DNA of 64,000 nucleotides, from contig JAJFGF010000072.1 of NCBI GenBank assembly GCA_021776245.1, positions 1 through 64,000 on the forward strand, in the 5' to 3' direction. Below are positions 33,352-41,066 of the stretch, piece by piece. Position 1 is the first letter of the stretch. Every line of letters starts with the position of its first letter. Source of the stretch: Hyphococcus sp. (GTDB lineage: Bacteria > Pseudomonadota > Alphaproteobacteria > Caulobacterales > Parvularculaceae). The translations under genes and the position numbers were made by a program. The notes beneath the pieces are model-generated. The model saw only the letters and a program-made list of their open reading frames with translations, had not been told where the DNA came from and ran no database searches.

Positions 33352-35256
33352 TTACCCCTCCAGATAGCCGTTCCCCTGCAAAAATTCGACAATGCGGTCG
33401 GCGGCGTCGGCGGCGGAGATTTCAGACGTGTCGACGTCGATCTCAGCGCCCTGGGGCGCCTCATAGGCGCTGTCGATGCCGGTGAAGTTTTTGATTTCGC
33501 CGCGGCGCGCTTTGGCGTAAAGGCCCTTGACGTCGCGCTGTTCGCAAACTGCAAGCGGCGTTGAGATATAAACCTCGATAAATTCGCCGTCCGGCATCAG
33601 ATCGCGCGCCATGCGCCGTTCGCTCTGGAACGGCGAAATGAACGAGACAAGGGTGATCAACCCGGCGTCGGCCATCAGCCGCGCGGTCTCGCCGACGCGG
33701 CGAATATTTTCAACGCGGTCCGCGTCCGTAAAGCCAAGGTCCTTGTTCAACCCGTGACGCACATTATCGCCGTCAAGCGTATAGGTATGACGCCCGAGAT
33801 CATGCAGGCGCTTTTCAACGAGATTGGCGACCGTCGATTTGCCGGAGCCGGAAAGTCCGGTGAACCATAAAACGCAGGGGCGCTGATGCTTGGCGCTGGC
33901 GCGCGCCTTTTTATTGATGTCGAGATCCTGCCAGTGCACGTTCTGCGCACGCCGCAGGGAAAAATCGATCATGCCGGCGCCGATGGTGGCGTTCGAACGT
34001 TTGTCGATCAAAATAAATGCGCCGGTGCGGCGATTGTCTGCATAGGAATCAAAAGCAATCGGCTGGGCCAGGTTCAAATTGCAATAGCCGACTTCATTTA
34101 GCTCCAGCGTCTTGCCGGACATATGTTCCAGCGTGTTCACATGGATTTTGTGTTTTAGCTCAGTGACCGTTGCCGGAATTATACGATTGGCGGTTTTCAT
34201 TAAATATTGCCGGCCGGGAAACAGCGTGTCTTCGGCCATCCACAAAAGATGCGCCGCGAACTGGTCGGTCTGCTCGGCGGGGGCCTGGCCGGCGCAGATA
34301 ATATCACCGCGGGAGATATCGATTTCATCTTTCAAGGTGACTGTCACGGCCATATCCGGGCCAGCTTCATCCAAATCGCCGTCCATCGTCACGATACGCG
34401 CAACTTTGGAGCGCTTGGCCGAAGGCAGGACAACAATCTCGTCGCCGGGTTTGACTTTGCCGCTGGCGATCGTGCCGGAAAAGCCTCTGAAATCGAGGTC
34501 CGGCCGGTTCACCCATTGCACCGGCAGGCGGAACGGTTTTTCTGCCAAATCGCTGCGCACATTCACTGTTTCAAGAAACGGCAATAGCGCCGCGCCGTCA
34601 TACCATGCCATCCGGCGGCTTCTGGTAATGATATTGTCGCCTTCGAGCGCCGACACCGGAATGCAGGCGATCGTCTCAAAACCAAGCGGCTTGGCGAAGG
34701 CGCGATATTCATCCTCGATCTTGCGGAAGGTGTCTTCGTCATAGCCCACAAGGTCCATCTTGTTGACCGCAAGAACGATATGGCGAATGCCGAGCAGCGA
34801 CGTGATAAAACTGTGACGCCGGGTTTGGGTTAAAATCCCCTTACGCGCATCAATGAGGATTACCGCAAGATCGGCGGTTGAGGCGCCGGTCGCCATATTG
34901 CGGGTATATTGTTCATGGCCCGGCGTATCGGCGACAATGAATTTGCGCTTTTCCGTTGAGAAAAAGCGATAAGCGACATCGATGGTGATGCCTTGCTCGC
35001 GTTCGGCGGCAAGACCGTCAACCAGCAACGCAAAGTCAATTTTTTCGCCTTGGGTGCCGTGTTTCTTGGTATCGCTTTCAAGCGTCGCGATCTGATCGTC
35101 ATAAAGAAGCTTTGAATCGTAGAGGAGCCGCCCGATCAGGGTTGATTTGCCGTCATCGACGCTGCCGCAGGTGATGAACCGCAACAGCCCTTTGCGTTCA
35201 TGGGCGGCAAGATAGTCAATGACATTATCATCAGCGGTGAGGGGAGCATTGGCCAT
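33352..35256 (-). CDS. cysNC: Sulfate adenylyltransferase large subunit fused to APS kinase
   Basis: The protein has 634 aa. Residues 1-430 are the CysN GTPase, with [18 protein letters not shown] (P loop), [13 protein letters not shown] and [11 protein letters not shown]; residues 445-634 are the APS kinase CysC, with [14 protein letters not shown] and the [15 protein letters not shown] region. Together with CysD it makes APS from sulfate and ATP at the cost of GTP hydrolysis, then phosphorylates it to PAPS. The fusion is common in alphaproteobacteria (NodQ type). It begins 1 bp after the cysD stop, so both are in one operon. Confidence 0.96.
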
Positions 35257-37900: not shown

Positions 37901-38626
37901 ATGCTCCTTTTCGCCGCTGGCGTCGCCTCGGGCTGGATCAATGTGCTCGCCGGCGGCGGATCGATCCTTGCGGTGCCGATCATGGTGTTTCTCGGCCTGC
38001 CCGGACCCGTCGCCAATGGCACCAACCGCATCGGCATCATCGCCCAGAATCTTGTCGCCGTGTACGGATTCTTCCGCAAAGGCTTTTCAGATTTCAAACT
38101 CTCGGCGTCGCTTGCGGCTTGCGCTTCAATCGGCGCGTTTTTCGGCGCCAATCTCGGCGTGCGACTTGATGGGGTCTGGTTTGACCGGACGCTGGCGCTG
38201 ATCATGCTCGGCATTCTCGTGATCATGATGACCGGCGCCGGACAAAAACCAGCATCGGAAACCGGCAAGGCGCGCAATCTTATTCTTGGCCATATTCTTT
38301 TCATCGGCGCGGGGTTTTGGGGCGGGTTTATTCAGATTGGCGTCGGGCTGATTCAGATGCCGATCCTTAATCGCGTGATGGGGCTCGATCTGGTGCGCGT
38401 GAATATGCACAAGGTCTTCGTCGCGCTCGTCTTCTCAATTGTCTCGCTCGGCGTTTTCGCCAGCCAGGTTAAAATTGAGTGGGTGTTAGGGATTGCGCTG
38501 GCGGCTGGTTACGCCTTCGGCGGCTGGCTGGGCGCCAATGCGACAATCGAAAAAGGCGCACCGCTGATCAAGCGAGTCTTTTATCTAGCTCTTGTCGCAA
38601 TGGCCATAAAATTGCTGTTTTTCTGA
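37901..38626 (+). CDS. TauE/SafE (TSUP) family membrane transporter
   Basis: The protein has 241 aa with about eight membrane segments. The N-terminal GWINVLAGGGSILAVP and NGTNRIGI motifs and the second-half FWGGFIQIGVGLIQMPIL and GLDLVRVNMHKV repeats are typical of TSUP exporters of sulfite or sulfonates. The frame stays open upstream for several codons without a better start, so a few N-terminal residues may be missing. The location near cysD-cysNC would suit sulfur anion export, but it is on the other strand. Its last 20 codons have a diverged second copy at 39334-39396. Confidence 0.87.
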   Translation: MLLFAAGVASGWINVLAGGGSILAVPIMVFLGLPGPVANGTNRIGIIAQNLVAVYGFFRKGFSDFKLSASLAACASIGAFFGANLGVRLDGVWFDRTLALIMLGILVIMMTGAGQKPASETGKARNLILGHILFIGAGFWGGFIQIGVGLIQMPILNRVMGLDLVRVNMHKVFVALVFSIVSLGVFASQVKIEWVLGIALAAGYAFGGWLGANATIEKGAPLIKRVFYLALVAMAIKLLFF

Positions 38627-38663
38627 ATTAGCGACGCTTGCCAGGCAATTATAGGCGAATGAA

Positions 38664-39329
38664 ATGCTCTTTGGCGCTTGGGCAATACTGTGTGTTGGTT
38701 CAGTTCTTTGGATGGTTCTATACCTGATAGGAAAAATTCGGAGCAGCGACGAAAACCAGATATGGCCTTTGGAAACATTCCTGGGAATGACTTGGCTATT
38801 TTGGACGGCTGCCCTCATAATATTTGGCGTCTATCTTCCCTTCTTGGTTTACGGGCCTGTTACGGCGTTCGTGGTGGCAATTGTCATAATTGGATTTTTA
38901 GTAGACATTTCGATTTTCGTTTTGCCTGCCTTCTTGGTCAGTTTCATTTCAGGAGCCGTGAGTTATTTCTATTTTTTCAGCAAACGAAAATACTGGACGG
39001 CAGCGTTTGCCGGAAATCTTTTTGCGCTAAGTACTCTTTTTCTGATGACGCCTAGTTATCTCGATAAGCCAATCAAACTTGCTGCCTTAGAATGCGCTGG
39101 AACCTCTGAAACACTGAACATGACGCATTCTTCCACTCGGCTTTGGGAAAAGCTGGCGTCCTTCAATAATTTCTTTCTCTATGAGTCCTTTCGGAAACCC
39201 CACGCGGTTCTCATCACGCGCAACGGCGTCTACCACTGGAGTTATAAAGAGAACCGATTTTATCGAGTAGGCCAGGTAGAACGGTCACCCGAAGAGGCGC
39301 GTGCGCACTATTTTTGCCCGCCGAAGTGA
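38664..39329 (+). CDS. Orphan membrane protein, AT-richer than neighbours
   Basis: The protein has 221 aa. Residues 1-140 contain four or five hydrophobic stretches (first MLFGAWAILCVGSVLWMVLYLI), residues 140-221 form a soluble C-terminal part with HAVLITRNGVYHWSYKENRF. Codon usage is unlike the surrounding genes, with many TTT, ATA and AAA codons and lower GC. It sits exactly between the real 3' end of the TSUP gene and a second homologous 3' end, so it is probably the cargo of a small integrated element or of a recombination between tandem relatives. No homologous family is recognised. Start ATG at 38664 lacks a strong ribosome site. Confidence 0.65.
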   Translation: MLFGAWAILCVGSVLWMVLYLIGKIRSSDENQIWPLETFLGMTWLFWTAALIIFGVYLPFLVYGPVTAFVVAIVIIGFLVDISIFVLPAFLVSFISGAVSYFYFFSKRKYWTAAFAGNLFALSTLFLMTPSYLDKPIKLAALECAGTSETLNMTHSSTRLWEKLASFNNFFLYESFRKPHAVLITRNGVYHWSYKENRFYRVGQVERSPEEARAHYFCPPK

Positions 39330-39333
39330 CGTT

Positions 39334-39396
39334 TTAGTTCGACGCGTTTTCTACCTGCCACTAATGGCAATGGCTGTTAAGCTGTTGTTTTTCTAA
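39334..39396 (+). pseudogene. Second, diverged 3' end of a TSUP gene
   Basis: This frame reads LVRRVFYLPLMAMAVKLLFF then stop. The true TSUP gene ends LIKRVFYLALVAMAIKLLFF then stop at 38564-38626. Fourteen of twenty residues are identical and the rest mostly conservative, while the DNA has diverged by about a third. There is no start codon or upstream homologous coding sequence, since the orphan gene's stop is only 5 bp before. This is a displaced gene end. Confidence 0.8.
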
Positions 39397-39533
39397 GATA
39401 AGTTTTCCAGAGGCGTTATGACGCCGTTTTCCCCAATGGACAGTCTGTCGCAGTTCCGGCAGGTAGGGCGTAACTGTTTGAGGGCCGCAGCGCCGCCCTC
39501 CTACGATTACCGACATTTCAACAAGGATGCCCA

Positions 39534-41066
39534 ATGATCACCCATGACGTTCACGCCCATCGCTCCAGGGATAATCTAAAGCGCGAAGACCAGCTTGCCT
39601 GGAAAATTGCAGCGGTCGCGGCCGATCCGGTTGAGGTCGATAGCGAAGCGACAGACATGATCATCAACCGCATCATCGACAATGCGTCCGTCGCGGTCGC
39701 ATCGCTTAACCGCGGACCCATCAAATCTGCGCGGGCGATGGCAAACGCGCATTTGCGGTCGGGCGGCGCAACGCTTTTCGGCGCGCCAGCAGATCACAAG
39801 GTCTGCGCCGAGTGGGCGGCCTGGGCCAACGGCACGGCTGTGCGCGAGCTTGATTTTCACGACACGTTTTTAGCCGCTGACTATTCGCATCCCGGCGATA
39901 ACATCCCGCCGGTGCTCGCTGTCGCGCAGCAATGTGGGCGCGACGGCCGCGATCTCATACGCGGCATCGCGACCGGCTATGAGATTCAAGTCAATCTGGT
40001 TAAATCGATCTGTCTTCATGAACACAAGATCGATCACATTGCGCATATCGGCCCGTCGGCCTCCGCTGCCGTCGGCACGCTGCTTGGTCTTGATACGGAG
40101 ATTATTTACCAGTCGGTGCAACAGGGCCTTCATACGACTGTAACGACACGCCAGTCGCGCAAAGGCGAGATTTCCTCATGGAAAGCCTTTGCCCCGGCCT
40201 ATGCGGGAAAACTTGCGATTGAGGCTGTTGATCGCTGTATGCGCGGCGAGGGTGCGCCGAGCCCGATTTATGAGGGCGAAGATTCAGTTATTTCCTATAT
40301 TCTTAATGGCCGTACCGCACGTGACAAAGGCGAGAGCCCCTATGCGCCGAGCTATCAGGTGCCGCTGCCGGGCGCGGGTGAGGCGAAACGGGCAATCCTT
40401 GAAACCTACACCAAGGAGCACTCGGCGGAATATCAGTCACAGGCGTTGATCGATCTGGCTTTTCGCATGGGCCGAGAGATCGGCGATTTCGACAAGGTGA
40501 AATCGATCGTTCTCCATACGTCGCATCACACCCATTATGTCATCGGCACCGGCGCCGGCGATCCACAGAAGATGGATCCCAATTCCAGCCGCGAAACCCT
40601 CGACCATTCGATCATGTATATCTTTGCCGTCGCGCTGCAGGATGGCGCATGGCATCACGTCAATTCATACGCACCGGAACGCGCCAGGCGCGAAGACACG
40701 GTGCGCCTGTGGCACAAGATTTCGACGATCGAAGATCCGGAATGGACGCGGCGTTATCATTCCCATGATCCCAATGAAAAAGCCTTCGGCGCCCGCGTTG
40801 TCGTGACCATGGAAAATGGCGACGTCATCGAGGACGAGCTTGGCATCGCCAACGCCCACCCCTTTGGCGCGCGTCCTTTCGGCCGGGCCGAATATATCAA
40901 GAAATTCCGGACCTTGACGGAAGATATTCTGAAACGGTCTGAATCCGAGCGCTTCCTCGATCTGGTGCAGCAGCTGCCTGATTTGTCTGCAGCGCAAGTC
41001 CTGGCGCTCAATCCCGTCGCGCCGGCGGACTATCTGGTTGAGAATGAGGCGAAGGGGATTTTTTGA
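39534..41066 (+). CDS. prpD: 2-Methylcitrate dehydratase
   Basis: The protein has 510 aa of the MmgE/PrpD family, converting 2-methylcitrate to 2-methyl-cis-aconitate in propionyl-CoA catabolism. Family features include [45 protein letters not shown] and FCNGCAVREL-like [11 protein letters not shown]. The ribosome site AAGGATG precedes the ATG. The gene starts the prp cluster; AcnD/PrpF are not needed when PrpD is present. It is followed after 19 bp by a REPIN-like repeat that may affect expression of the downstream genes. Confidence 0.93.

Follow-up and report, generated by a model that had tools for sequence, protein, structure and literature searches.

How does a bacterial genome come to hold a lone AT-rich gene between two homologous copies of the same gene end, and which of the two ends belongs to the original gene? 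The question is raised by a locus in a window of 64,000 nucleotides (the whole stretch of DNA analysed) from Hyphococcus sp., where a gene for a TauE/SafE (TSUP) transporter is followed by an orphan gene and then by a second, diverged copy of the transporter's last codons. A first-pass annotation, made from the letters alone, had proposed that an integrating element brought a replacement 3′ end and displaced the original one, and had put forward a largely replaced tandem TSUP paralogue as the alternative. Here we analyse the two ends, the gene between them, the corresponding loci of relatives and other gene ends of the same genome, and we weigh the explanations that these data allow.

Materials and methods

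TSUP loci with their flanks were compared from 30 relatives. In the mosaic test the two halves of each end, the left 36 nt and the right 27 nt, were compared separately with 25 same-genus ends; this panel leaves out L054, where the end is one residue longer, and the other-genus loci L062, L071, L072 and L073. Short, stop-anchored copies of gene tails were screened for in 2.00 Mb of the 4.14-Mb genome, and the directional control used the ends of 2,900 mechanically defined ORFs, each 150 codons or longer.

Results

The locus comprises the following features.

37901..38626, forward strand: TauE/SafE (TSUP) transporter, the host gene; 241 aa, intact, with the putative replacement 3′ end (PF01925, E 1.8e-38; orthologues in the genus)
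38564..38626, forward strand: End1, the last 20 codons and stop of the TSUP gene; left ~36 nt native-like, right ~27 nt not
38597..38604, forward strand: putative left crossover, GCAATGGC, the shared run within the breakpoint plateau
38627..38663, forward strand: spacer of 37 bp after the TSUP stop
38664..39329, forward strand: orphan ORF, the cargo; 221 aa, with a hydrophobic N-terminal half and a more polar C-terminal part
39334..39396, forward strand: End2, the TSUP tail that was putatively displaced; native over the right ~27 nt, not native-like over the left ~36 nt
39367..39374, forward strand: putative right crossover, the second copy of GCAATGGC, 770 bp from the first
39397..39453, forward strand: conserved non-coding element upstream of prpD, which marks the native junction; sequence AAGTTTTCCAGAGGCG...
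39534..41066, forward strand: MmgE/PrpD family gene, the native downstream neighbour; 510 aa (PF03972 and PF19305)

The initial description of an AT-rich orphan between two homologous TSUP 3′ ends proved correct, with exact coordinates. Its claim that the segment at 39334-39396 repeats the last 20 TSUP codons and stop in diverged form is likewise borne out by a profile of TSUP C-termini, which matches End2 with 41.5 bits (E 1.3e-10). End1 (38564-38626) translates as LIKRVFYLALVAMAIKLLFF and End2 (39334-39396) as LVRRVFYLPLMAMAVKLLFF, each followed by a stop, and the two agree at 39/63 nucleotides and 15/20 residues. Since the DNA match alone is not above chance (local score 26, against a maximum of 30 in 500 first-order Markov resamples), we read the resemblance as homology that is visible at the protein level. 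In a six-frame profile search, TSUP homology is limited to the last 24 TSUP residues; the possibility that the orphan is a frame-shifted TSUP copy was ruled out on this result. With the stop included, four codons of the two ends are identical, 12 differ synonymously and five are replacements; because the differences are mostly synonymous, both tails appear to have diverged largely while they were part of working genes.

The replacement end leaves the TSUP reading frame whole: the 241-aa product aligns to its end with its orthologues, and the gene's closest named relatives are in Marinicaulis and other Parvularculaceae. The 37-bp spacer (38627-38663) has no blastn-short match in the collected loci, own copies left out. 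A 13-nt inverted repeat, 92% complementary, lies within the TSUP gene (38534-38546 and 38592-38604); its right arm includes the putative crossover GCAATGGC, possibly by chance.

The spacer and orphan have 46% GC, against 55-60% in windows across neighbouring genes. All 11 neighbouring genes compared outscore the orphan in codon usage, and none of 2000 resamples has a stop-free stretch as long as its 224 codons (maximum 217). It is the one long ORF of the insert and has no Pfam match, and the insert contains no recognisable integrase. Judged from hydropathy and a low-confidence model, the N-terminal half of the predicted protein may form membrane helices, and we infer that it is probably an accessory membrane protein. 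The model, obtained with AlphaFold without an alignment, has a pLDDT of 59.6 and a pTM of 0.31; its best Foldseek match is at E 0.32, and we make no claim as to fold.

Searches for homologues of the orphan were carried out in samples that overlap one another. It matches only itself in its own genome, nothing better than E 0.013 in 59 relatives, and nothing in phages or plasmids or in 397 other genomes of the order. Three matches each were returned from the class sample (384 other genomes, E 0.006-0.009) and from 61 other genomes of the family (searched at E 0.1; E 0.03-0.08), none of them convincing. No homologue was confirmed in genome_contigs or viral_contigs, where the peptide patterns used reach close relatives only, and neither PADLOC nor the PDB sequences gave a match. 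A single match in the phylum sample (397 other genomes; E 3.3e-4, 56 residues) contains three internal stops and was taken as noise, and a PHROG match at E 0.018 over 29 residues was ignored. At the DNA level a 35-bp match in G015 (89%, E 3.3e-4) was set aside, the open frame there being different; a further match, in G016, was found at E 0.007 among 28 genomes of the genus, own genome included. The suggestion that the orphan might turn up beside other gene ends is not supported, as the searches made gave no homologue, nor did the 59 relatives, the 28 genomes of the genus or the family and order samples yield a donor with a TSUP anchor followed by the orphan.

Comparison with relatives identifies the junction that the insert interrupts. 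The first-pass annotation had suggested looking for an uninterrupted TSUP gene running directly into the sequence that here follows position 39396, and this arrangement is seen in 16 of the 30 relatives, the nearest (G021) included: the conserved element lies at most 5 bp after the TSUP stop and is followed by prpD. The distance from the stop to the matched element is 27-118 bp in three further relatives and 0.9-2.4 kb, behind other genes, in seven; the element is thus detected in 26/30 and missing in four, the contig ending in two of those. The prpD gene itself lies downstream of TSUP in 28/30, and the contig ends in the remaining two. In the window the element follows End2, not End1. Because it follows the TSUP stop in relatives and End2 here, we take End2 to mark the native junction and some 770 bp to have been added.

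The element at 39397-39453 contains a GGCG...CGCC hairpin and a TTGACA-like motif and is perhaps a terminator plus the prp promoter. Its 16-bp core has one exact copy in the genome, and up to three mismatches give 67 matches against 42 for the reversed pattern; the idea of a genome-wide repeat was dropped. No Rfam family scores above threshold and no tRNA is found within the window. What lies between TSUP and the prp element (38627-39396 in the window) varies among relatives: L047, L049, L051, L054, L055, L056 and L063 have differing genes there, which we take to be acyltransferase-like, PRC-barrel-like, dioxygenase-like, LemA-like and DUF2207-like.

The mosaic test indicates that neither end is native throughout. 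Over the left 36 nt, the mean number of identical sites is 25.4 for relatives (minimum 23.3), 25.6 for End1 and 19.5 for End2; over the right 27 nt, it is 23.0 for relatives (minimum 20.9), 20.3 for End1 and 23.8 for End2. The two ends are therefore complementary mosaics: the left part of End1 joined to the right part of End2 is native-like, and the reverse combination is not. A breakpoint at nt 31-42 fits best; this plateau includes the 8-bp run GCAATGGC, which the two ends share. The chimaera gains 3.6 sites over either whole end, a gain reached by none of 600 ordered pairs of relatives and by none of the 30 most diverged pairs. In a random-substitution null where End2 alone decays, 0/4000 draws reach it at each of four settings; 0.4-1.4% do so when End1 also changes, though less, and 4.8% with eight random changes in both ends. 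The signal is carried by 63 nt only, with shared runs of just 8 and 9 bp, and whole End1 is no outlier against single relatives (12/220 TSUP windows are equally extreme). Along the TSUP body, a search for a breakpoint by nearest relative gave no clear switch. On this sequence pattern, End1 and End2 would represent the attL-like and attR-like products of one crossover between a circle and the native tail.

The tail screen found six copies of gene tails downstream of their gene (0.25-3.5 kb) in 243,203 comparisons, none upstream in 241,105 and none at 20-40 kb in 1,188,624. The six copies correspond to five places, three of which, TSUP included, share the same layout. The other two with this layout are listed here.

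G000:C24:35021-37150 (C24:36020; L221, 15021-17150), minus strand: M14 carboxypeptidase (peptidase) gene with a 999-bp insert, one cargo and a displaced tail
G000:C76:5867-11136 (C76:8758; L299), minus strand: salicylyl-CoA hydroxylase-like array with two cargos and three tails

At the M14 locus the cargo encodes a trypsin-like protein of 303 aa (PF13365), the insert has a GC content of 0.46, and the displaced tail ends YLAVMAQMIDVVR. Here a PEMT gene follows the displaced tail, and in 2/25 relatives (L246 and L253) it follows M14; it was not found within the 700 bp viewed after M14 in the other 23. The mosaic test is uninformative at this locus, its gain being reached by 151/272 pairs of relatives after eight of the 25 were dropped because their ends could not be aligned without gaps. 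At C76 the host gene resembles that for a bifunctional salicylyl-CoA 5-hydroxylase/oxidoreductase (NCBIfam NF006101, 1001 bits, below the cut-off of 1078). Its tail is followed by a 310-aa nucleotidyltransferase-HEPN protein, a diverged second tail, a 341-aa unknown protein and a third tail nearly identical to the first; further downstream lies an ORF that is presumably DNA cytosine methyltransferase-like. The HEPN cargo was also searched on plasmids (397 records), and three regions were viewed by annotation.

These loci give four cassettes, counting two at C76, and in all four, host gene and cargo share a strand and recognisable tail homology begins about 0-6 bp past the cargo stop, as read from the alignments. 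The gap is 4 bp at TSUP and a few bp and 2 bp at C76, and at M14 tail and stop are adjacent; a gapped DNA alignment at C76 extends the tail homology further left, weakly. Spacer and cargo together have GC contents of 0.46, 0.45, 0.54 and 0.46, so that one of the four is not AT-rich. The three sites have no 8-bp motif in common and share one 7-mer.

Repeated tails were also encountered at the other two of the five places, C2:67045 and C43:24530, and elsewhere. At C2:67045 (L239, 7045-7740) the last ~15 codons of a long gene, which looks to us like a TonB-dependent receptor, and the next ~60 bp are repeated, nearly identically, 695 bp downstream; the repeat surrounds a reverse-strand GIY-YIG gene, and a similar repeat occurs at C2:69755. 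Further duplicated ORF tails came from the screens at G000:C43:24530 and G000:C2:39920. Among the relatives' loci (116 loci, 1.0 Mb) the tail screen gave no clear case of the same layout. In L050 (7400-8808, from G007) a CysNC-like tail recurs 1345 bp downstream, the two copies separated by a 363-aa ORF on the reverse strand, and the gene concerned resembles the CysNC-like gene of the window (33352-35256). L177 was flagged as well. L072 (also L139) passes the screen mechanically; its repeats run in several frames and on both strands and were judged to resemble repeated DNA more than gene tails.

Discussion

On balance we favour a reading in which about 770 bp carrying one gene were inserted within the last 20 codons of the native TSUP gene, by one crossover between the native tail and a foreign TSUP tail carried on a circle. 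The incoming DNA would have consisted of the orphan gene and a TSUP-like 3′ tail of foreign origin; its simplest form would be a circle of about 770 bp with a single TSUP tail reading LVRRVFYLPLMAMAIKLLFF. A single reciprocal crossover of this tail with the native one, around GCAATGGC, would give End1 from native left and foreign right parts, with the TSUP gene intact, and behind it the orphan, then End2 as the displaced tail of foreign left and native right parts, and then the native downstream sequence. We infer the circular form, the exact crossover point and which halves are foreign from the mosaic pattern. In general terms, a tail behind a cargo gene would recombine with the host's tail, the host gene would stay whole, and the old tail would move downstream; repeated events would build an array such as that at C76. 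A recombinase supplied in trans may be the agent, or else ordinary recombination on short homology; the insert has no recognisable enzyme of its own. At C76 and M14 the tails are near-identical over long stretches, and at TSUP they share only runs of 8 and 9 bp. As the host gene stays whole, the cargo would be gained at little cost. The early proposal that the insert brought a replacement TSUP end and displaced the original is supported by the mosaic of the two ends and by the empty sites of relatives.

The best reading of the TSUP locus is thus 3′-end integration, a known kind of event, in variant form. We regard the e14 prophage at icd of E. coli as the closest precedent for its geometry: as described in PMC6379469, e14 provides an in-frame replacement end and leaves the old end as a pseudo-fragment of 163 bp. 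The TSUP insert likewise sits at the 3′ end of a protein gene, with the replacement end in frame and the old end displaced to the far side. Unlike e14, a prophage that integrates site-specifically, it measures 770 bp, holds one gene and no recognisable integrase, and its ends share runs of 8-9 bp.

More tentatively, the three loci might represent mobile cassettes of a single gene each, with a copy of the host gene's own 3′ tail, immediately after the cargo stop, as the recombination site. Such cassettes would enter the ends of conserved genes with help in trans, leave these genes whole and stack into integron-like arrays; we hold this extension to be rather unlikely. In integron gene cassettes a site-like segment comes straight after a single ORF, and the cassettes form arrays beside a fixed site. 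Both properties are found here, with the difference that the segment is the host gene's own tail. The analogy with integron cassettes is also drawn in passages of PMC5361080, which attribute T6SS immunity gene arrays and displaced 3′ regions of Rhs genes to homology-facilitated illegitimate recombination. In those passages, as here, successive incoming modules arrive behind a constant gene and push the older 3′ parts further downstream. The 3′ parts described there belong to variable effector or immunity modules, whereas the gene that keeps its end here is a conserved one for transport or metabolism and bears no relation to its cargo. Passages of PMC2884548 ascribe small variable genome segments, most of which do not match known mobile elements, to illegitimate recombination, sometimes homology-assisted; a regenerated host-gene tail, as proposed for TSUP here, is not described in them. 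Within the open-licence literature and the terms used, no paper apparently describing a host-gene tail immediately behind a lone cargo gene came up.

Homology-facilitated illegitimate recombination is also the strongest of the competing explanations for the TSUP locus, and we consider it possible but not likely. A linear donor would have been anchored by homology on one flank, either the TSUP gene or the prp side, and joined by microhomology inside the TSUP tail; the donor may have carried a TSUP end and then the orphan, or an empty-site donor may have entered a locus that already bore the orphan. A homologous anchor with an illegitimate far junction is a known process, as passages of PMC2884548 and PMC5361080 describe, and exchange at this spot is not rare, because other genes occupy the space between TSUP and the element in 7/30 relatives. 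The process predicts, however, a displaced end derived wholly from the recipient, and End2 does not conform: its left part, with 19.5 identical sites against the relatives' minimum of 23.3 (on 36 nt), is non-native and its right part native, with the reverse in End1. Nor does it explain why the tail begins about 0-6 bp past the cargo stop in all four cassettes.

The remaining accounts fare worse. If slippage or repair had duplicated the tail and one copy had then decayed, the tails would need no foreign DNA, and random change in both ends reproduces the mosaic in up to 4.8% of draws, but decay of End2 alone never does (0/4000 at each of the four settings). The codon differences between End2 and the end of G021, eight synonymous and four replacement, are not the pattern of unconstrained drift, and the orphan and its composition are left unexplained; we judge such an origin very improbable. 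A tandem TSUP paralogue that lost all but its tail and was replaced by the orphan, the alternative of the first-pass annotation, is very improbable, even though the stop-to-stop distance (770) is near the length of one TSUP gene (726 bp). Only the last 24 residues are present, with nothing else TSUP-like in six frames. The scan for a TSUP C-terminus covered 137 sequences (the window plus L044-L179, with many genomes represented twice); 111 gave a match, and two matches occurred only in the window and in L074 and L085, which are copies of it. The other scanned loci thus show no second TSUP tail, and relatives with two complete tandem TSUP genes and no orphan, which would have pointed to deletion, did not occur among them. 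Least probable of all is an assembly chimaera: the genome is a draft of 76 contigs, but this contig (C70) is 133 kb long, the insert lies between native sequences in their expected order, and a similar layout recurs at two other loci.

If the tails are true recombination sites, the crossover of a cargo-borne tail with a host tail would provide a cassette route of gene gain in which the host gene is spared and the cassette can do without an integrase of its own. Many of the lone genes that bacteria acquire come with no visible mobile element. Displaced tails immediately after a foreign ORF would leave such gains legible in the sequence, so that their junctions, donors and rates could be counted across genomes.
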